Positions 1,157-18,876 of a stretch of 35,113 nt of DNA are shown here, piece after piece; position 1 is the stretch's first letter; every line of letters starts with the position of its first letter. The DNA is from a virus: positions 1-35,113 of the IMG/VR virus record IMGVR_UViG_3300041809_000076; one strand, given 5' to 3'. The notes beneath the pieces are model-generated. The model worked only from the letters and a program-made list of their open reading frames with translations. It made no database searches and was not told where the DNA came from. A program made the position numbers and the translations under genes.

Positions 1157-1696
1157 CTAAGATTGAAAAGATTTCAGGTAGGCGATAGCAGATTCAAGAA
1201 TCTCAATCTGATCATTTGCCAGACCAAGCATTCGGTTGTGTGCATCGCAGACCAGCCCACGCACGCATTTCCCACAAGAAAATTTGCCGGGACAACAGGA
1301 ATGGTCATGGTCAAGAGAGAGACGCCAGGGTTTCGATTCTGGCTTGCCACAGATGGCGCAGCAGCCGTTTTGCTTGTGCTCCAAATCAAGCAAGAACTCA
1401 ACTGACACGCCGTACTTGCTTGCCTGCTTGGCATAGCTCATACACATTTTGCATCGACCGACCTGGCGATAACCATCGTCTTGCGACCGATCAAAGTCGA
1501 TTAGTGGCTTTTCGCATTTGCATACGCCGCACCACAGGAATCCCCTGGCTGGTGGGTGGGGCATGTCAAATCGCTTGCGGCGCTTGCGGCCCTCTTCGCC
1601 AGGATCGCCATACTTGTAGTATCGCTTGCCGTGAACAGCGCAATATCCAATCGCCCAAACGGGTTCATGGCATATCTCTAGTTTGCATTCAACCAT
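1157..1696 (-). CDS. HNH endonuclease, recombination endonuclease VII type
   Basis: 179 residues; AGGAGGG sits 7 bases before the ATG at 1696. The N-terminal third has paired Cys/His (CKLEICHEP, CAVHGKRYYKYGDP), a pattern common in phage-borne HNH proteins. The middle has CGVCKCEKP and CKMC. The C-terminal part carries the endonuclease VII signature: CCAICGKPE, then LSLDHDHS, then VRGLVCDAHNRMLGLANDQ. Members bind zinc through the cysteine pairs and cut DNA with a beta-beta-alpha-metal site. It sits between the intron-rich capsid gene and two structural genes, where a free-standing homing endonuclease would be expected. Homing as opposed to junction resolution is inference. Confidence 0.85.
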   Translation of the reverse strand: MVECKLEICHEPVWAIGYCAVHGKRYYKYGDPGEEGRKRRKRFDMPHPPARGFLWCGVCKCEKPLIDFDRSQDDGYRQVGRCKMCMSYAKQASKYGVSVEFLLDLEHKQNGCCAICGKPESKPWRLSLDHDHSCCPGKFSCGKCVRGLVCDAHNRMLGLANDQIEILESAIAYLKSFQS

Positions 1697-1875: not shown

Positions 1876-1950
1876 TCAGGAATCACCGAAACTAGGTGGG
1901 GTGGTCCCTATGCCCACCCCTTGGATTCCCTGAATAAGCGCGTTCCACGT
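1876..1950 (-). CDS. Major capsid protein exon 5 (residues 576-599 and stop)
   Basis: 75 nt encoding TWNALIQGIQGVGIGTTPPS and four more residues, then TGA at 1878-1876. It is too short to be seen as a gene alone. It was found by following the reading frame across intron 4: the join CCT|ACG is in phase 0 and gives a plausible flexible capsid C-terminus. The DNA also holds a 7-bp hairpin (GGGGTGG/CCACCCC). Confidence 0.8.
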   Translation of the reverse strand, partial: TWNALIQGIQGVGIGTTPPSFGDS

Positions 1951-4900
1951 CAAATTTGTTACCGCTGTCGCGGGCCACGTCATTTCTGCATGGCTCTGTG
2001 TATCTCTACACAGTTCAGACTATACCATCACCCGTCATGGGTGCTCAGTACCTAGTCGTTGAACCTTCCTCATTTTACAGAGGCTCGGCTGCTGATTGTC
2101 CATACCGTTCGCTTTTTGAACTATCACGATTGCGTTTTCACGCTGCGTTGTAGTGCGAACGTCTAACTGGACTTCCCAGCAATTCTCTGAGTTGTCATCT
2201 GCGTATTCCTACGCAGCGTCCCCGAGTTGAGGAGCGTAGTGGCAAAAAGTGCCAATCTCGAACGTGCTTGCATCGTAGGTGAATTGCACCACTGGCCATT
2301 GCACGGCGACGTAGTCCTGTGGTAGAACCATGACGCTCGTCTCCGAGACATTGCTGTCAGGAATCGGAAGCGTCTTCTGCCGAATCAATGAGTTGCCCTG
2401 CGTATTGTTACTCACCTTGCAGGTGGGCTGCGTCATTTCTGCGCAACTCTTACTGTCTCCAGTAAGTCCAGACCATATCACCATCCCAGAGGGATGCTCA
2501 GTACATGGTCGTTGAACCTTCCTCAGCTAAGAGGCTCGGCTGCTGATTGTCTCTACCGCATGCTTTTCAAGCAATTCACGTTCGCACTTTCGTGCCACGT
2601 TGTAGCGCATACGTCTAACGAGATGTTCCAGCAATTCTCTGAGTTATGCAGCAACACATTGCTGTGTTACGGCCCCAAATTGAGGCATCCACGGGTGGAC
2701 CGTCAACGGCACCTCGCTACCGGTCACTTCGTTCAGAAGCGACTGGACGACCGTACCGGCCTTGACCCCGCCCATGCCCGTGTCGTTCGGAATGTAGACA
2801 CGGTAAGCAGAGTTCGCAGCGTTGTTGACGATAGCGTTGGACAGCTGGAGACGATCGAAACCGTTCAACCAGATTTCCTCCGGGTCACCCTTAACCTGCT
2901 CGTACAGCGAACCGAAAGCGGTCTGGAACTCAGAGCCAGGGTTCGTCGTAGAGAAGGGGGCGTTCAGCCGAGTCACGTAGCCACCAGAGGCGGCGGTGTT
3001 CGTCAGCAGACCGTCGTAGTTGTTGGCGTTGGCCGACTGGTCCGCGCCGCCAGAAGCGACCTCTGGACCATAGATTCCTTGTCCGGTGATGTAGCCAACG
3101 TTTGATCCAGACCTACCGCTATACACGTAAGGTCCACCAGCAACTGAGGCGCAGTAGTAGTTATACCCCAGCGCTCCAGCCACGTCGGTACCGACAGTAA
3201 CCTGAATGGCCTGACCGGTTGTCACAGACAGCGAGGTCGCGGCGGTAGCCGGTCCCTGGTGCATGCTGTAACCGTTGGTGCCAAGCAAGTCGCCGGCATC
3301 GGCTGCAACAACAACGAACACCGAAGCGGCAAACGCCTGGGTGTTGCTTGTCGGACCCTGGGGTGCCAGGGATGCCGACACTGCCTTCACAGTCACGGCG
3401 CCGGGGGTGCCAAGGGCGCCCGCATAGCCGGTCTGTGATCCGCGCCCGTAAAGCATCAGGCGCTCGTCCAGAAGCATCGTCGAGTAGAGCAGGGCGGTGT
3501 TACTGAGAGAACGAACGTCCTCAACGTTTTGTTACTCGTCATCTCTGACGGGTCGCATCATTTCTGTGCGACTCTCCACATCTCTGTGAAGACCAGACTA
3601 TACCTTAATCTGTTATATCCAGATTCCGCGTACCTAGTCGTTGAACCTTCCTCTACGCCTGGCGGCGGTGGAGGCTCGGCTGCTGATTGTCTCTATCAAC
3701 CGCTTTTCAGACCCTCACGCTCGCCCTTTGGGGCCACGTTGTGGTGCGGTTGCCTAGCGAGATGTTCCAGCAATTCTCGCGGTTATTGCCCGCATATCGC
3801 TATGCGGCGGACCCTAAAACTGAGCCCTGACCCTGGTACTCTGCTTGCCAAGACACACTGTCCGACAGTGACGTAGTCACGTACGGAAGCGCCACGTCGT
3901 AACCGGCGTAGCTGATGTATGGTCCACGAACGTACGAAAGACCACCAGGGCCAGCGTTCGTGTTGCTAGATCCAGCACCGGCCTCACCCTGTCCTGGCTG
4001 CGTGGTGGTAATGCCACCCGTGCCAGTACCGGTGAATCCGCTGATGACCTTGAACCTGCGCAGACCACCCTGACCGCGCACTCTAGGAATACTATTCCTG
4101 AGTGGAGTCGGACGAGGGGTGAGCAGTTTTGCCTTGCTTGTTACCGCATTTCTGCGGGTCAGATCATTTCTGTCTGACTCTGCATGTCTCCATGCAGAAC
4201 GGATCATATCTTAATCTGTATGTTGGCCGCACCTACACGGCTTACCACAGTTGATGCTCCAACGTTGACACTGAGCCTTTACAAGCGATGGACGAAACCC
4301 TAAAGCCTTACGGGTTTTGCTCATCTTTTGACGCGTTTCCAGCGTGTGTGGCTTAGATTCTTTGCCGCGTGTCGGAATGCTACGCTCTTTGAGCGCTCGA
4401 TAAATCGGGCTGCGGGTCACCCCGCTGATTTGAGCAGCATCTTCTACGGACAAGCCAGATTGGTAAAGCGCCACGGCGTGGTCAACCATTGCCGGATCGG
4501 TTTTGTTGACCTCACTCATCTTGGCACGGGTTTCTGGAGTCCGCTTCATGCCCTTCCGAGATCTGCCCATCTTTTGACGAGTTTCTAGCGTGTGCTTATA
4601 ACCCTTCAATGTGGTGCTGCACTTCAGGTGTGGGTGAATCTCCACCATCGCCACCTTCGGTGCCATTCGTCAAATCACATCCCAACGAGCGATAGTAGCC
4701 GATCCAATATGGTTCAGCTATGCGCCAATCGTGTGACCCAACAGTTTGAATCAGTTCAATGCGTGGGCGGTATCCCAATCGCAGCAGCTGCGTTATCCAA
4801 AGCGACCGATGGTCGGTTCTAACTTTCGATTTGTCGACATGCCCCTTAAGCCTGTCTCGCAAAGACTGGATTGTTTTGCCCACGTAGCGAATCTCGTTAT

Positions 4901-5527
4901 CTCGTGGATCTATCAAAATGTAGATGTTTACAGATTTCACGTACATGATCTCTGAACCTTCCCCATCTGACAGGGGCTCGGCTGCTGATTGTCCTATACT
5001 ACCACATTTTCAAACCATCACGCTCGCCCTTTCGGGCCACGTTGTGGTTGTGGTAACTTCAGGATGTTCCAGCAATTCTCGTGATTTTCATCTGCGTATT
5101 GCTACGCAGCGGCCCGCGATAAAACAGGCGCCTCAAGATCATACGGAACCAGCCCCGTTGCAACGGGGGTTGTAAGGCTCCACTCCTTTTCGAACTCACC
5201 CCACGAGGAGGTGGTTCCGGCCGACTTGGCCATCTCGTAGTCGTCCTGGGCCTTGCGGACCTGGGCGCTGCGAGATACTTCATGACGAATCGGAGCAACC
5301 TGAGAGTTACCCACGAAACCGTGGGCCTCATGCTTCTCGTCCCACTGGGTTTCCCCAGTCAGACCAGCAATGGTTGCCTTCATCATCTCAGCGGTGAACT
5401 CGGCGTACTCATCGGAGACCTGGCGAGCAGACTTGCTGACTCGGTTCAGTGATCCGCGCTCGGCCAATTCTGCAGCCGAAGTAACGCCATCGGTGAGTTC
5501 ACGCGCAGAGGGGACAGGATATCCCAT
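1876..5527 (-). CDS. Major capsid protein gene, five exons and four group I introns
   Basis: Coding sequence, in order: 5527-5126, 4132-3823, 3524-2683, 2400-2230, 1950-1876; 1800 nt, 599 residues. The exon frames join exactly when each intron is cut after the U of a P1 U.G pair and after its terminal G. The protein directly follows the maturation protease and the scaffold-like gene, as expected for a major capsid protein. Exon 1 has a charged helical N-arm. Exon 2 has PLRNSIPRVRGQ and RFKVISGFTGTGTGG, an E-loop-like region. Exon 3 has an alpha region (LLYSTMLLDERLMLYGRG) and an Ig/Fn3-like insert (ALGYNYYCASVAGG). Exon 5 ends in a TTPPSFGDS tail. Unspliced RNA would stop 6-12 codons into every intron, so no full capsid protein can be made without splicing. 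The family call rests on position and general resemblance. Confidence 0.85.
1951..2229 (-). ncRNA. Group I intron 4 of the capsid gene (no ORF)
   Basis: 279 nt, the smallest. P1 pairs exon UCCU(C) with intron GGGGA. P2 is CTGCGTA/TACGCAG with a GGAA loop. P3 is CTCAG/CTGAG. P5-region stem is GCGT/ACGC with GAAA. P6a is CCTC/GAGG. P7 is GACTA (2057-2053) with TAGTC (2022-2018). P8 is CACCC/GGGTG. P9 is CTGTGTA/TACACAG with GAGA, then GCCATG/CGTGGC around CAGAAATGA. It ends at G 1951 and interrupts after CCT in phase 0. Only four bases separate P7 from P3, so P7.1/P7.2 are absent, which argues against subgroup IA. Confidence 0.9.
2230..2400 (-). CDS. Major capsid protein exon 4 (residues 519-575)
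   Basis: 171 nt, exactly 57 codons, phase 0 at both ends. It starts QGNSLIRQKTLPIPDSNVSE and ends STFEIGTFCHYAP. The VQWPVVQFTYDAS stretch is beta-rich, as in the A-domain of capsid proteins. Because both ends are phase 0, skipping this exon would keep the frame. There is no ribosome-binding site or start codon of its own. Confidence 0.8.
2401..2682 (-). ncRNA. Group I intron 3 of the capsid gene (no ORF)
   Basis: 282 nt. P1 pairs exon GCCU(C) with intron GGGGC. P2 is GTAACACA/TGTGTTGC with a GCAA loop. P3 is CTCAG/CTGAG. P5-region stem is GCAC/GTGC with GAAA. P7 is GACCA/TGGTC, a third compensated version of this helix. P8 is CATCCC/GGGATG. P9 is CTTACTG/CAGTAAG with GAGA, then TTGCG/CGCAG around CAGAAATGA, then CACCT/AGGTG. 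It ends at G 2401. It interrupts after a CCT codon in phase 0 and contains no ORF. Confidence 0.9.
2683..3524 (-). CDS. Major capsid protein exon 3 (residues 238-518)
   Basis: 842 nt, beginning TT (completing the split Phe codon), then EDVRSLSNTALLYSTMLLDE, and ending VHPWMP. The segment has an alpha helix, then about 110 residues of Ig/Fn3-like beta sequence (QAIQVTVGTDVAGALGYNYY), then a region with IWLNGFDRLQLSNAI typical of the capsid P-domain helix. The frame is open upstream of the first Met back to a stop within intron 2, as expected for an internal exon. Confidence 0.85.
3525..3822 (-). ncRNA. Group I intron 2 of the capsid gene (no ORF)
   Basis: 298 nt. P1 pairs exon GGGCU(C) with intron GGGUCC. 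P2 is CCGCATA/TATGCGG with a GCGA loop. P3 is CCGCG/CGCGG. The P/Q core matches the other introns. P6a is CCTC/GAGG around a longer, GC-rich loop. P7 is GACTA/TAGTC. P8 is AATCTG/CAGATT around 7 bases, the same stem that carries the ORF in intron 1. P9 has a GAGA loop, and the following hairpin is GTCGCA/TGCGAC around the conserved loop CAGAAATGA. It interrupts the gene in phase 1, the only one of the four to do so, and ends at G 3525. Confidence 0.9.
3823..4132 (-). CDS. Major capsid protein exon 2 (residues 135-237 plus one base)
   Basis: 310 nt starting after the terminal G of intron 1, reading AKLLTPRPTPLRNSIPRV and ending EYQGQG plus the first base of a Phe codon. It includes a Gly/Ser/Thr-rich loop (GTGTGGITTTQPGQGEAGAG) and SYAGYDVALPYVTTSLSD, typical of E-loop and P-domain strands. 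There is no initiation signal of its own: the ATG-led frame across it begins inside intron 1 at the conserved S element, which argues against a separate gene. Confidence 0.85.
4211..4666 (-). pseudogene. DNA-binding C-terminal part of the intron 1 endonuclease, out of frame
   Basis: From about 4620 this frame encodes repeated NUMOD3-type motifs: YKHTLETRQKMGRSRKG, MKRTPETRAKMSEVNK and, later, PHTLETRQKMSKTRKA. Between the second and third lies a resolvase-like helix-turn-helix (ALYQSGLSVEDAAQISGVTR). These are the DNA-recognition modules that normally follow a GIY-YIG domain. The region is offset by one base from the catalytic frame, so the enzyme is broken unless frameshifting occurs. It ends at TAA 4213-4211, five bases before the 3' strand of P7, so the ORF occupies just the P8 loop. 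The apparent ATG at 4666 lies within the catalytic frame and is probably not a real start. Confidence 0.7.
4596..4946 (-). CDS. GIY-YIG homing endonuclease, N-terminal catalytic part (intron 1)
   Basis: 116 residues in this frame. The catalytic module is visible: YILIDPRDNEIRYVGKT (the GIY and YIG strands), SLRDRLKGH (Arg and His), AEPYWIGYY (the metal-binding Glu) and LTNGTEGG (Asn). Such enzymes cleave intronless alleles and drive intron homing. The ATG overlaps the last base of the 5' P7 strand, so the coding region starts inside the ribozyme core. After GGDGGDS the frame runs into nine codons that do not match the family and stops; the expected C-terminal region lies in the next frame (4211-4666). 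One surplus base around 4600-4660 would explain this, as would a sequencing error or programmed frameshifting. Confidence 0.8.
   Translation of the reverse strand: MYVKSVNIYILIDPRDNEIRYVGKTIQSLRDRLKGHVDKSKVRTDHRSLWITQLLRLGYRPRIELIQTVGSHDWRIAEPYWIGYYRSLGCDLTNGTEGGDGGDSPTPEVQHHIEGL
5126..5527 (-). CDS. Major capsid protein exon 1 (residues 1-134)
   Basis: The ATG at 5527 lies 18 bases after the stop of the scaffold-like gene; the ribosome site is weak (GAGATAAC). The exon encodes 134 residues ending LVPYDLEAP. The last codon CCT supplies the U that pairs with G in P1 of intron 1 (GCCU against GGGC). Without splicing, translation continues seven codons to TAG in the intron's P2 hairpin. The segment is mostly helical and charged (SDEYAEFTAEMM, RKAQDDYEMAK), like the N-arm or delta region of HK97-fold capsids. 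Confidence 0.85.
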
Positions 5528-5545: not shown

Positions 5546-7630
5546 TTAGAGCTTGGCCAATTGCTCTGAAAGCTCTTTCGCCTCCTCGCGCTTGGCCTTG
5601 CGAATGTCTTGATCGGGCGTCGTGCGGGCGACGTGCTCGACTTGCGCGAGGCGCATTTCAAGCTCGTCCTTCGACTTCGCCACGTTCTGCGCCTCTACGG
5701 GCGCGGTCCGAGCAATGTTGCTCGGTGCCGCCATCTTCTCAACCGTTGCCAGGCGCTCCTCTAGCACCGCGTTCGCCTTGCGAACCTCTGCGGTAGCATC
5801 TTCGATTGCCTTCTGCATGGCTGCGCGATCTGCAGCTTCCTTCTCTGCCTGCTCGGCCTCACGCAGCGCCTTCTTGGCGGCCTTGCGAGCCTGCTTGGCT
5901 TCGATCTCTTCGGGCGTCGGCTCAGCCTTGACGGCAGCCTCAACCTCGGTCGACTCGTCGGCGTCTTCGCCCTCGGCCTTCGCCGCACCACTCGGTGAGG
6001 AATTGGCGGAGTCGCTGTCGCCCTGATCGGCCTCGTCCTCAAGGTCGGTGTTCTCGTCCTTGGGACTCTTCTTCTTCGACTTGTTGTTGGCGTCCTTGGC
6101 ATTGGACTGCGCGTCCATTTCGTCCATCGCAGCCTTACCCTTCAGCGCCTCAGCGAGAATGCCGACGAGCTTGTCTTCGCGCGCGTCGAGCACCTTCGTC
6201 AGCTCGTCAGTAGTCATATTCTCAATCTCCTCGGACAGTTTGTCCTGGTCTATTTCGACGGACTTGGCAGTCGCGTCGTTCTTCTTGGCTGGGTCGTCGT
6301 CGCCGAGTACCCCGCCAATATGATCAGCCAAATCCTTGGCCTTGTCTCTCGCAGCGGCGAGTGCCGCCACAGTCTTTCCAGCCAGGCGGCGCCCGGCCTT
6401 TTCAATCAACTCATCATCGGGCAGCGACTTCGCAGCCTCTAACCCTTCGTGGAACGCAAGTTGGCTCATAATGCCGAGTGCCTGACTCACGCCGCACAGC
6501 GCCTCGGTAGCGGTGTAAGCGTCGAAGATGTCGTTGCCCATACCCACCGCAGCCTCGGTCGACTCGCGCTGGGCAAACGTGCGGATCAGTTCCGCCGCTG
6601 TCATCAGCGCCAGGGCCGCATCGGTTGCGGTCTGGGCGTCGACAGCCTCCCACGCCGGGGTACCGGGTGCGCCTGCGTTGGTGTCGTCAGTGCCATCACC
6701 AGTGTCAGTAACTTGCGAAGCGGCTGCGGACAGCGCCGGGTTTGGAGCCGAGAACACGTTGCTCGTAGCCTTCTCGGCATCGTCATCCTCCACACTCTTG
6801 GCCGACACTTCAATGCCGAACTTCTTCGCCGCCGTCTTAATCTTCGGCATCGCCTTGTCGCCGAACGGCGACTGCGGTGCGCGTGACAGGGCGTTACGGG
6901 CGTGGGACTCGTCATGGACGGGGAAGTGACGCAACGAGCGGGGCGTGGTCTTGCCCTCGCTGTCCTTCTTGCCACCTGGCTCGATATAGGCGAACGCGGA
7001 GTCGGGCAGGTCGTTGATGTCGGCAGAGGACATCTGGGCTTTGGCGACAAGTTCGGGGTCGTCACTGTTGGCAAGACAGGCATCGCAACCACACGCTTTG
7101 TCCATCGTCTCCCGACCACCAGCGCCCTCGGTAATCTTGCCGCCATCGGCATCCATCGTGTTCAGTTCGCTCGCTGACGGCATGTCACCACACTCGCCAG
7201 TACCAGCGCAGGCGGTGCATTCGTTGCCCTGATCAACACCAGACCCGTCGCACGCCGGGCACTTCGCCGGCACCGGGACGGGTGCGCCAGACGCGGCCGA
7301 ACCGGCCACGGTTTTGCGTGCGGCGAGTTCCATCAGCGACTTCTCGGTGTCGCCGGGCATCGGCTTCAGCCCTGAGCCATGACATGTGGGGCATTTCATG
7401 TTGCCCTGGCGAATGGTCTTTTCTCCATGGCAGGTCGGGCACTGTGGTCGGTCATCGTCGTCGGCCTTGGCGATTTCTGCAAGGACACCATCGGTGTCGG
7501 TGACAGTCTCGGTGTCGTCAACAGCTTTGAGGATCAGCCACTCGGTGCCGTTGGCCGGAGTGCCGACAGCATCAACGCGTTCGGGGTCGATCTCCAGCAA
7601 TTCAGTAATGGCTACGGTCTCGTCGGACAT
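5546..7630 (-). CDS. Scaffold-like capsid assembly protein with DnaJ-type zinc motifs
   Basis: 694 residues. The ATG at 7630 overlaps the protease stop (TGATG) behind AGGAG. The N-terminus (ITELLEIDPERVDAVGTPAN) resembles the segment found at the end of phage maturation proteases. Then come four CxxCxGxG-type motifs at about 64, 80, 124 and 138. Residues near 210-270 (FAYIEPGGKKDSEGKTTPRS, then ARNALSRAPQSPFGDKAMPK) match a domain of unknown function common in actinophage proteins. An acidic central region follows, then a long charged coiled coil (about 570-690, repeated A, E, K, R) typical of scaffolds. Its position between protease and capsid genes supports a scaffold role. The zinc motifs are unusual for one. 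Confidence 0.75.
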   Translation of the reverse strand: MSDETVAITELLEIDPERVDAVGTPANGTEWLILKAVDDTETVTDTDGVLAEIAKADDDDRPQCPTCHGEKTIRQGNMKCPTCHGSGLKPMPGDTEKSLMELAARKTVAGSAASGAPVPVPAKCPACDGSGVDQGNECTACAGTGECGDMPSASELNTMDADGGKITEGAGGRETMDKACGCDACLANSDDPELVAKAQMSSADINDLPDSAFAYIEPGGKKDSEGKTTPRSLRHFPVHDESHARNALSRAPQSPFGDKAMPKIKTAAKKFGIEVSAKSVEDDDAEKATSNVFSAPNPALSAAASQVTDTGDGTDDTNAGAPGTPAWEAVDAQTATDAALALMTAAELIRTFAQRESTEAAVGMGNDIFDAYTATEALCGVSQALGIMSQLAFHEGLEAAKSLPDDELIEKAGRRLAGKTVAALAAARDKAKDLADHIGGVLGDDDPAKKNDATAKSVEIDQDKLSEEIENMTTDELTKVLDAREDKLVGILAEALKGKAAMDEMDAQSNAKDANNKSKKKSPKDENTDLEDEADQGDSDSANSSPSGAAKAEGEDADESTEVEAAVKAEPTPEEIEAKQARKAAKKALREAEQAEKEAADRAAMQKAIEDATAEVRKANAVLEERLATVEKMAAPSNIARTAPVEAQNVAKSKDELEMRLAQVEHVARTTPDQDIRKAKREEAKELSEQLAKL

Positions 7631-15528: not shown

Positions 15529-15851
15529 TACATAATCCCTTCGCCACGCACGGTAGCCGTGGGCGCGTAAATCGTGCAGTCGTTGCTGCCGTCTGGGCGT
15601 TCCGTGCGCACCGACATGATCCGGTCAGCGGTCTCGTCACCGATATAGTCTTCGCGCTCCATGACAACGTGGCGAGCGTCAGATACGGCGTCAGGCCCAT
15701 TCACCTCACACAGCGGTATGTTCAGCCCATTCAATGCGGGACAATCGTGCATGCGGGCGTGAGCATCGTTCCGCTCGGTACGGTCACGTGCGTCACACGA
15801 CGGACAGTGCCACCAACGGATGACGGGTCGCAGCAGGACACCGTCAATCAT
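15528..15851 (-). CDS. Zinc-ribbon protein after the portal gene
   Basis: 107 residues; the ATG at 15851 overlaps the portal stop by eight bases. The N-terminus has WWHCPSCDARDRTERNDAHA, then HDC, giving a CxxC...H...C metal site, followed by strands (ARHVVMEREDYIGDE). Translational coupling with the portal gene suggests a head role, but none is demonstrated. Confidence 0.6.
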   Translation of the reverse strand: MIDGVLLRPVIRWWHCPSCDARDRTERNDAHARMHDCPALNGLNIPLCEVNGPDAVSDARHVVMEREDYIGDETADRIMSVRTERPDGSNDCTIYAPTATVRGEGIM

Positions 15852-18800
15852 TTGACCGCTCGATTACGATATTGCCATCTTCGTCGCGACTGATCTTGGA
15901 GTTGCTCGGCGTCGCAGGCGGCACGTTGACCGTGATGTTCGGGTCCTGCTTGGGCACCCTGACGCTCACGTTCGGCGCTTCCACGTTGTGCGTATGGGTG
16001 CTGGTCGCGTCAACGTGGACCTCAGGAGCGGCGACGTGGACTTCAGGAGCGGCGACGTGGTGGATCTGACTGGCGTCAACGTGGACCTCGGCCGGCGGCG
16101 GCGGCTCGACGTGAACCTCGATCGGCCGCTTCGCCTTGGTCAGCGCCTCTAGGAATTCCGACACGATCAGCTGCTGGTTGGCTGCCGACATGCGCTCAAG
16201 GTCGGGAGCGAGTGCTTCCTTGACCACATTGGCGATGTCCACAAGTTGGGCCTGTGCCTTCGCCGCCCACTCGGCCTGGTCCCGTTGGTCAAGCAGATTA
16301 ATAAGGAGTTCGTTCTTGCGCATATTGAACTCCGCATCCTGGTCGTATTTTGGCCAAATCAGTTCGGTGGCGGTTGGGGTGCCATCAAACAGTTCTAGGG
16401 CCTTAGACGCAACCACAGGGGCCTCTGGCGGGATTGTGGCAGCCTTCTTGGCTTCCGTTAAGAGCGACCAATCCAGAGATTGGGTCTCCACACGCACGGC
16501 GGGGTTGCCGGCCAGCGCACCGGGGCGCCACCAAGCGGCGTTCTCGACCTCTTTACCCTTGCGGTTGTCGCCGCTCAGGTCGATATCGGTCTCGTGGGGG
16601 ATCGTGTAAATGAACCCCTGATACGTCCCGGTGGGCGTCGTCCATGACGCGCCCTTGTCGCCTTTGGGCAAATCGCAACCAACCTCTTCGGTCCACTCGC
16701 GTTGTGCCGCACCCCAGGCGTTCTCGCCATCTTCTAGAATGCCGCCAGGGATTTCCCACTGTCCGGCTGCCGACGACTTGTTGTCAATGGAACGCTGGAC
16801 CATGAGCACGCGGCCCGTGTCGGCGGCCTGGACCAAGATGCCCGCAGCTGTCGGCGTGGCCTTGCTGAGAGAAATGAGGGACTTTACGACAGCGGCGTCA
16901 CCCGCACGCACGGCGTCGTTGAGCTGCTCGGCCATGGCGGCGTCGACCGCGGTGAACTCGAAGTCACGTACGCCCTTGCCCATGCGGGTGCGAGCCCACT
17001 TGGCGAACGATGCCAGTTCCTTCTCGGCGTCGGCGTCGGCGTCGGGCTGACGGTTGTCGTCCTTCGGCGTGATGCCACCCGGCGCCTCGTTGTCGGGCGC
17101 TGGCGGCTTCGGCTTGGGCTTGGCAGCAACGCTGGCAGATGTCGGAGCGACGCTGGCGGACGAGGATGGCGATGTTGCGGCCTCGGGCACGGTGCCGTCG
17201 GGGTTGGCCATGACGTGGACTGGCGCCGGCGGATTCGCCGCCGCCTCGGCTGCCTGTTGCTGCGCGGCAAGTTGCCCCTGGAGGAACGATATGCCCGTGC
17301 CCGTCGTAATCCCCAGTTGGTCGGCCTCTGGCTCGCTGATCAGCGGCACGCCACGCTCGGCGCGGATCTCATTGCGCGTGCGGATGCCGGCATTGACGTC
17401 GATCTCATCGGCCTGGGCGCGGGTCAGATCGTCCTGATCGTCGCCACCGCCAGTAGCGGTCATGGTCAACTCGGGACCAACGCCCATAAACCGACGCGCC
17501 GCGTCGTTGATGCAGTCGATCAGGAAGTTGCGCAGCGCGTCCGTGGCGAACTGCTCGGCCTGGTCCGACTGCTGCTTGCCTGCCGCCCCACCACCAATGG
17601 ACGAGTGCATCTGGATGCCAAGCAATGACTGGGGGATACCGAACTTGGCACCCATCTGCATGACGAGCCAGGCGTCGTAATCCGACTTGTACGCCTCGTC
17701 AACGCCCTTGAGCTGATCGACCTTCATACCGGGACGCATGAGCATGAACTGCTGACGGCGCTGGTTCTGGCCCGACCACTGGTCGTTATACATCCGCTCG
17801 TAGTACCCGAGCTGCTCGGGCGTCCACATCTCGGCGCCCTCTGTGGTGATGACCATCTTGGGCGTGACGCCATGGCTGTACTCAGCATGCAGCCACGACT
17901 GGCGCTGCATGTAGATCGTGGCGATGTTCACGCACTCTTCGACCTGGCTGTAACCGTACAGCGAGGACGGGTGCGGGCGACGGATATAGTACGCCAGCTG
18001 ATCCGTCTGGAATCCGTTGGGAATCTCGCCATCACGGTCCATCGGCTCGGACTGATACTCGCCACGAGGGAAGCCGTAGAGAATCTGCTGATACGCCGGC
18101 GACGGCGGTTGGGGAATGAACCCCTGATTGTCGAGCAGGATCTTGATCGTCGGCGTATCGATGGTGGACAGCGAGATCAGTTCGCCACCGAGATTGTACC
18201 GCGGTGCAATCACCACGCCGTCGTATACGAGGTGACTGTATAGAACGTCAGTCAACCACTGCGAGAACGTGAACCCCATGAGCTTGTCGGGGTAGTCGAA
18301 GAACTCCTGTACCCGCTGCAGCTCGTCGCCGTACTTCGCCCGGGCGATGGCTGTCGCCTTGGCGCTGTTCGTCAGATCCTGATCCGCCATGATCTGGTTG
18401 ATGATTCCCTGCGAGAATCCCCACGACCAGTCAAGGCCGACGATGGCGTCTTGGACTAACTGGATGCACCTGGCGATCACGTCAACGTCTTCGGCCAGTC
18501 CGCGTAACACCGACCACGGCAAGCGTCGATCTATGAGGTTGATATTTGCCGCTATGAGGTATTGCGCACGACGCGGGAGCGTCCGACCCGCCTCGTCAAG
18601 CGGGTCGATCGCGTCGGGGAACAGCGGCATCGCTGGGCCGAAGCCCGAGTCGAAGACGCCGGGCGGACGTGGCAATGGTTGGAACCCTTGACCCGGTCCC
18701 ACCTGGTTGAACGGTGACGACTGGTTGATGCCCACTGGATATGTTGCACCCGAAGTCTGCTGCGCCGCCATCGCCACTGCGGGCGACATGGCCTTTTCTA

Positions 18801-18876
18801 TGGCGGCGTCAACCGCTGCGTCCAGTTCCGCCTGTCTGCGTTCGCGCCTACGCCCAAGGATGGGGATGCTTGCCAT
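15844..18876 (-). CDS. Portal protein fused to a NUDIX hydrolase domain
   Basis: 1010 residues; GAAGGGG precedes ATG 18876. Residues about 100-530 are a phage portal core: YLIAANINLIDRRLPWSVLR, RCIQLVQDAIVGLDWSWGF, LYGYSQVEECVNIA, KFGIPQSLLGI, SDQAEQFATDALRNFLIDC and RTRNEIRAERGVPLI. Residues 545-620 form an Ala/Pro linker. A NUDIX domain (about 676-800) has a complete Nudix box at 712-734 (G-x5-E-x7-REWTEEVGC), with GQWEIPGG before it and VENAAWWRPG after it. Residues 845-915 are helical, and 918-975 repeat E-V-H-V. Portals form the dodecameric DNA gate; NUDIX enzymes hydrolyse nucleotide diphosphate derivatives. Both parts are in one uninterrupted frame with catalytic residues intact. Confidence 0.85.
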   Translation of the reverse strand: MASIPILGRRRERRQAELDAAVDAAIEKAMSPAVAMAAQQTSGATYPVGINQSSPFNQVGPGQGFQPLPRPPGVFDSGFGPAMPLFPDAIDPLDEAGRTLPRRAQYLIAANINLIDRRLPWSVLRGLAEDVDVIARCIQLVQDAIVGLDWSWGFSQGIINQIMADQDLTNSAKATAIARAKYGDELQRVQEFFDYPDKLMGFTFSQWLTDVLYSHLVYDGVVIAPRYNLGGELISLSTIDTPTIKILLDNQGFIPQPPSPAYQQILYGFPRGEYQSEPMDRDGEIPNGFQTDQLAYYIRRPHPSSLYGYSQVEECVNIATIYMQRQSWLHAEYSHGVTPKMVITTEGAEMWTPEQLGYYERMYNDQWSGQNQRRQQFMLMRPGMKVDQLKGVDEAYKSDYDAWLVMQMGAKFGIPQSLLGIQMHSSIGGGAAGKQQSDQAEQFATDALRNFLIDCINDAARRFMGVGPELTMTATGGGDDQDDLTRAQADEIDVNAGIRTRNEIRAERGVPLISEPEADQLGITTGTGISFLQGQLAAQQQAAEAAANPPAPVHVMANPDGTVPEAATSPSSSASVAPTSASVAAKPKPKPPAPDNEAPGGITPKDDNRQPDADADAEKELASFAKWARTRMGKGVRDFEFTAVDAAMAEQLNDAVRAGDAAVVKSLISLSKATPTAAGILVQAADTGRVLMVQRSIDNKSSAAGQWEIPGGILEDGENAWGAAQREWTEEVGCDLPKGDKGASWTTPTGTYQGFIYTIPHETDIDLSGDNRKGKEVENAAWWRPGALAGNPAVRVETQSLDWSLLTEAKKAATIPPEAPVVASKALELFDGTPTATELIWPKYDQDAEFNMRKNELLINLLDQRDQAEWAAKAQAQLVDIANVVKEALAPDLERMSAANQQLIVSEFLEALTKAKRPIEVHVEPPPPAEVHVDASQIHHVAAPEVHVAAPEVHVDATSTHTHNVEAPNVSVRVPKQDPNITVNVPPATPSNSKISRDEDGNIVIERSND

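Follow-up and report, generated by a model that had tools for sequence, protein, structure and literature searches.

Four predicted self-splicing group I introns in the major capsid gene of a bacterial virus, and relatives with up to five

The DNA analysed here (the window) is a metagenomic virus contig, IMG/VR record IMGVR_UViG_3300041809_000076, positions 1 to 35,113. On the minus strand, positions 5527 to 1876 are occupied by a single 599-codon capsid gene, which consists of five exons and four group I introns (Table 1). Cutting at the U|...G sites yields coding exons of 402, 310, 842, 171, and 72 nt, the last of which is followed by the stop codon, and removes introns of 993, 298, 282, and 279 nt (1852 nt in total) at phases 0, 1, 0, and 0, respectively. 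An exon-terminal U and an intron-terminal G are present at all four introns, and the choice of the 3' splice sites was aided by homologous sequences. An earlier note on this DNA, made from the sequence alone, had proposed the same 599-codon gene, junctions, phases, and excised length, and its model was reproduced exactly by spliced translation and by alignment with homologues.

Table 1. Components of the split capsid gene in the window (positions are those of the window)
Feature	Position	Strand	Description	Basis
Capsid exon 1	5126..5527	-	402 nt, start codon at 5527	Spliced translation and homologue alignment
Group I intron 1	4133..5125	-	993 nt, core at 5086-4929	Rfam RF00028 and core profile
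P2-apex stop of intron 1	Intron nt 22	-	TAG, in frame	Stop position
Endonuclease, N-terminal part (in intron 1)	4596..4946	-	GIY-YIG	Pfam PF01541, E 1.5e-6
Endonuclease, C-terminal part (in intron 1)	4211..4666	-	NUMOD3 and helix-turn-helix, in the other frame	Pfam PF07460, E 2.4e-9
Capsid exon 2	3823..4132	-	310 nt	Spliced translation and homologue alignment
Group I intron 2	3525..3822	-	298 nt, phase 1, no ORF	Rfam, 57.4 bits
Capsid exon 3	2683..3524	-	842 nt	Spliced translation and homologue alignment
Group I intron 3	2401..2682	-	282 nt, phase 0, no ORF	Rfam, 61.1 bits
Capsid exon 4	2230..2400	-	171 nt	Spliced translation and homologue alignment
Group I intron 4	1951..2229	-	279 nt, phase 0, no ORF	Rfam, 67.1 bits
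Capsid exon 5	1876..1950	-	75 nt, including the stop codon	Spliced translation and homologue alignment

The capsid gene follows, in this order, genes for the terminase (TerL), the portal, a minor head protein, and the maturation protease. Its product matches only an unnamed PHROG; no family was matched in the Pfam search, and no relative was found in a sequence search of solved structures. The capsid assignment therefore rests on fold, gene position, and distant annotation, the last being a distant homologue annotated as a major head protein. The mature part of an uninterrupted homologue (L006) was modelled by AlphaFold with 50 relatives, in a run that replaced one with 20 sequences (pLDDT 50). 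The model (pLDDT 75, pTM 0.73) was compared using Foldseek and VIA-align, which gave Z scores of 20.6 with SPO1, 18.4 with phi812, and 17.8 with HK97 prohead II, the alignments with SPO1 and HK97 spanning 228-273 residues. The fold prediction suggested in the earlier note thus returned an HK97 fold for this homologue. Encapsulins have the same fold and scored similarly, so that fold alone does not discriminate between the two, whereas gene order does. Taken with the gene order, the homologue model indicates that the 599-residue product is an HK97-fold major capsid protein.

Several other features were observed in this neighbourhood. A 694-aa frame (5546-7630, minus strand) between the protease and capsid genes carries CXXC-type repeats and a charged C-terminal half; it gave a weak DnaJ zinc-finger match and occupies the scaffold's place. 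The portal protein (15844-18876, minus strand) seems to carry a NUDIX hydrolase-like domain as a C-terminal fusion. Just past the capsid stop codon (1842-1793, minus strand) lies a conserved tRNA-like minihelix, in which an acceptor-like stem (UCCCGC/GCGGGA) is set on a T-arm-like hairpin with the loop UUCRANY, the D and anticodon arms being absent. It is found at the equivalent place in L006, L009, L011, L013, L015, L019, L020, and L215. In the alignment of the nine phages, 98% of the cells pair and 16 cells change on both sides, a result matched by none of 500 shuffles. A T-arm-like hairpin with a longer insert is present in L012, L014, and L016, and the pattern was not found in more distant relatives. 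A tRNA search of the window identified none. The minihelix could serve as a signal for processing, by RNase P or otherwise, at the end of the capsid mRNA.

When the spliced protein was used to scan viral contigs, 79 loci were identified, most of which encode it in a single frame and only two of which (L019 and L020) are split. The uninterrupted homologues (L006, L011, and others) are 72-78% identical to the spliced protein and align without gaps through all four junctions, as expected for a single capsid gene. Homologues that align with intron-encoded residues, named in the earlier note as grounds for rejecting its model, were looked for, and none contains such residues. Between the joined exons and L006, divergence is 0.19, 0.16, and 0.57 at codon positions 1, 2, and 3, respectively; the joined exons are therefore under purifying selection as protein. 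Matches in bacterial genomes (40-48% identical) are mostly from Streptomyces and other actinobacteria, so that the window phage probably has a host in this group.

The inserts themselves were assigned to the group I family by cmscan with the Rfam model RF00028 (Intron_gpI). On the minus strand, the matches at 2239-1996, 2692-2449, and 3839-3574 all exceed the cut-off of 50 bits, and that to intron 1 (5135-4180, 46.2 bits, E 7.8e-9) falls slightly below it because an ORF splits this intron. No further Intron_gpI match was found by cmscan in the whole 35 kb window, and the intron core profile gave no match in 50 sequences generated with a first-order Markov model to resemble the window in size and composition. 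The pairing of each internal guide sequence (IGS) with its own exon scored higher on average than that with the exons of other sites (P1 score per IGS, 7.4 vs 5.3), and none of 5000 shuffled IGS-exon reassignments reached the observed sum; P1 is weak in intron 4 of L019. For 11 ORF-less introns, including three from the window, RNAalifold predicted 67 pairs, 42 of which show compensatory change. The Infernal/Rfam check proposed in the earlier note, covariation, and own-exon pairing thus all uphold its four group I introns, and the exon U paired to G in P1 and the terminal G that it described were found at every one of them. With conserved sequence and compensatory pairs retained in their ribozyme cores, the introns look functional. 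A gene spread over several frames may also resemble one interrupted by inteins or read by programmed frameshifts, but the inserts match a ribozyme family, in-frame stops occur shortly past the 5' junctions, and the homologues lack the insert residues; we give such explanations practically no weight.

We consider it very probable that the locus is a 599-residue HK97-fold capsid gene whose transcript carries four self-splicing introns, and we infer that splicing takes place in the cell. Each intron would bind its own 5' exon through the internal guide sequence, the last exon U pairing with G in P1; guanosine would attack the 5' site, and the freed exon would then attack after the terminal G. Autocatalytic excision is predicted to leave a joined capsid mRNA. 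Guide sequences resemble one another between introns (GCCU pairs with GGGC in both intron 1 and intron 3), and the ribozymes might consequently use each other's exons and give rise to exon-skipped capsid forms. Such forms are conceivable, since P1 cores are shared between introns, both a direct join of exon 1 to exon 4 (a loss of 1152 nt) and a skip of exon 4 (171 nt) would stay in frame, and skipping by similar group I introns has been reported for phage Twort (cited in PMC3073962). They are nonetheless distinctly unlikely, given that each IGS on average fits its own exon best, that most of the HK97 fold is lost without exons 2 and 3, and that intron number and position vary among the five split genes described below, so that no skipped form is conserved.

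The 16-base intron core AATCAGCAGCCGAGCC was used to scan for further split genes and was found in at least 119 stretches; among the AATCAGCAGCCGAGCC matches listed, 12 stretches carry pieces of the capsid family. A joint search for intron cores and capsid fragments, followed by resolution of the splice sites, gave four introns in the window gene, four in L019, three in L020, three in L215 (same contig as L166), and five in L218. The five phages together contain 19 introns at 13 sites, and frame and conserved residues are restored at all 19 joins. Their spliced proteins are 67-76% identical to one another. Four sites, three near codons 231, 237, and 564 and one at 575, are common to two or three phages, and the others are private; intron 2 of the window shares its site with introns of L019 and L215, and intron 4 with intron 5 of L218. 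At least 11 more distant contigs have an intron core within or adjoining the capsid frame, and Rfam independently confirms introns in L019, L020, L215, L218, L180, L193, and L156. The core-based scan biases the apparent prevalence of split genes, which was 2 of 79 in the protein-based scan. The unusual intron load to which the earlier note drew attention is real as regards the four introns, but it is not peculiar to the window phage, as relatives carry up to five.

These relatives also bear on whether the window gene could be a decayed or misassembled capsid copy, with the four blocks as dead intron remnants at a non-functional locus. The metagenomic origin of the contig and the frameshifted endonuclease ORF of intron 1 might be read in that way. 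However, the exons are free of stops and frameshifts over 599 codons and diverge mainly at third positions, sequence conservation and compensatory pairing persist in the ribozyme cores, five independent contigs share this type of organization (at several identical sites), and no second capsid gene was seen in the available 35 kb of this incomplete contig. A decayed copy is therefore very improbable.

Two departures from the common pattern were observed in the relatives. At the WQA|EYQ site of L019, a 222-nt intron (5079-5300) has the usual P1-P2 and P9 ends and an Rfam score of 50.9 bits, but lacks the AATTGCTGG-type P4-P6 core present in the others; it may be a chimaera that combines two group I introns. 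In L180, which has three other intron cores within or near the capsid gene, an extra core (9322-9158, minus strand) is situated upstream, approximately 1.1 kb from the capsid frame that was detected, and may belong to an adjacent head gene.

According to a review (PMC3073962), an in-frame stop directly past the 5' junction is present in most group I introns. In the introns of the capsid family, this stop is mostly built into the P2 hairpin, which has a GNRA-type loop whose start is UAG or UGA in 15 of the 19 introns. All 15 of these P2-apex stops are in frame with the upstream exon, whatever the phase (0, 1, or 2): the stop lies at intron nt 19 or 22 in phase 0, at nt 18 or 21 in phase 1, and at nt 20 in phase 2. 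Introns 2 and 4 of the window both have an in-frame TAG at this place. By chance, one-third would be in frame, and with ten sites counted once the probability is (1/3)^10, or approximately 2e-5, a figure weakened by the common ancestry of the phase-0 introns and by the fact that it was these very introns that first revealed the pattern. In the four introns without a P2-apex stop, the exon frame is first closed at nt 22, 37, 69, or 105; intron 3 of the window, which has CAG at the apex and TAA at nt 37, is one of them. The in-frame stop is the earliest of the three frames in 11 of the 19 introns (p 0.02, a weak signal), and in the more distant capsid genes an early stop is mostly at or near the splice site, with one exception. 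A ribosome on unspliced RNA would thus run into an in-frame stop, in most cases that of the P2 apex, roughly 20-40 nt past the 5' splice site, and translation would be halted upstream of the ribozyme core.

Intron 1 encodes GIY-YIG (PF01541) and NUMOD3 (PF07460) parts in two frames with a frameshift between them, so that its endonuclease does not occupy one intact frame. Related ORFs in L215 and L218, which are 66 and 62% identical, respectively, to the GIY-YIG part of the window, are single frames. Unless a sequencing error accounts for the frameshift, the window copy is therefore likely to be in decay. Mutually related LAGLIDADG-like ORFs occur in introns of L019, L020, and L218 at three different sites, and one L019 intron has an HNH-like ORF (both classes assigned by eye). 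All the ORF-bearing introns are located within the 5' group of sites. A free-standing endonuclease VII/HNH gene (Pfam PF02945, E 6e-17) was also observed directly past the capsid gene (1157-1696, minus strand), and a counterpart with 59% identity lies past the three-intron capsid gene in L215, there on the opposite strand.

The related GIY-YIG introns of L218 (3189-4170) and the window (5125-4133) are inserted 10 nt apart, at codons 130 and 134, respectively, as if the intron had moved to a neighbouring site. This offset, found in different phages, together with the many close sites, the similar guide sequences, and the single ribozyme family to which all but one of the introns belong, might point to one founder that multiplied within each genome through ectopic repair or reverse splicing, and not to repeated transfer between phages. 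The identity comparisons show no recent multiplication of this kind: identity among introns within a genome (67%) does not exceed that among introns across genomes and sites (68%; p 0.89, by shuffles that ignore relatedness), whereas similarity tracks the region of the gene (p 1e-4, shuffling uncorrected for relatedness) and introns at the same site are slightly more alike (71%, p 0.03). We regard within-genome multiplication as unlikely, although an ancient round of it may have occurred. That similarity follows region and site and not genome favours an old intron pool that would have spread between phages over recent multiplication in one genome. We infer that the introns are mobile elements, with putative GIY-YIG, LAGLIDADG, or HNH genes of the relatives sitting in introns of the same ribozyme family, and repeated invasion of highly conserved capsid codons would have produced a hot spot.

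Introns of this kind are already known in phages. The HK97-type capsid gene of mycobacteriophage LittleE carries a group I-like intron that has the same exon-end U and intron-end G and contains a homing-endonuclease gene, and its splicing was demonstrated by RT-PCR and N-terminal sequencing (PMC3706429). LittleE belongs to another capsid lineage and has a single intron of approximately 0.8 kb with a reverse-strand LAGLIDADG-like ORF, whereas the window gene has four introns and that of a relative five. In Bacillus phage SP-15 (KT624200), a joined capsid CDS is annotated around an insert with an endonuclease gene. This insert matches part of intron 4 of the window (71.5% over 134 nt), but it is the only one, its endonuclease is unrelated, and the capsid is T4 gp23-like. 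The earlier note was right to cite the three-intron gene of Twort as a precedent but left out the single capsid introns of LittleE and SP-15. Three related group I introns and exon skipping are described for Twort orf142/orf182 (PMC11878797, PMC3073962), and up to three group I introns per gene occur in the Pol and TerL genes of Bastillevirinae (PMC11878797). These genes have at most three introns and do not encode capsids, in contrast to the present major capsid gene with its four to five introns. A higher number is found in the major capsid gene of Faustovirus E12, where five of the 12 introns are group I and two hold GIY-YIG genes (PMC6247863); this is a eukaryotic giant virus, and spliceosome-like introns are mixed in. 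Among the open-access papers found, no phage gene carries more than three group I introns and no phage capsid gene more than one, so that four to five in one phage capsid gene exceeds the cases reported there. As for Faustovirus, we take its capsid fold to be unrelated to the HK97 fold.

Taken together, these data raise the possibility that, in bacterial viruses, this family of capsid genes serves as a dedicated hot spot for group I introns, with at least 13 sites, up to five introns per gene, movement to neighbouring sites, P2 stops fitted to phase, and capsid output that passes through serial ribozymes, a reading to which we give slightly less than even weight. Late in infection, hundreds of copies of the major capsid protein are needed for each virion, and the product of the split gene would presumably be made in comparable abundance. 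Given this demand, four or five introns in series constitute a severe test of what group I introns cost a phage. The intron-free genes and those with three, four, and five introns, at shared and private sites, form natural replicas in which it may be asked how sites are chosen, how endonucleases are lost, and how introns avoid collision with ribosomes; the phase-matched P2 stop would offer a simple, testable sign that introns have adapted to the frame of the host gene. Gene finders break or miss such capsid genes, and capsid-based classification of viruses is affected as a result.
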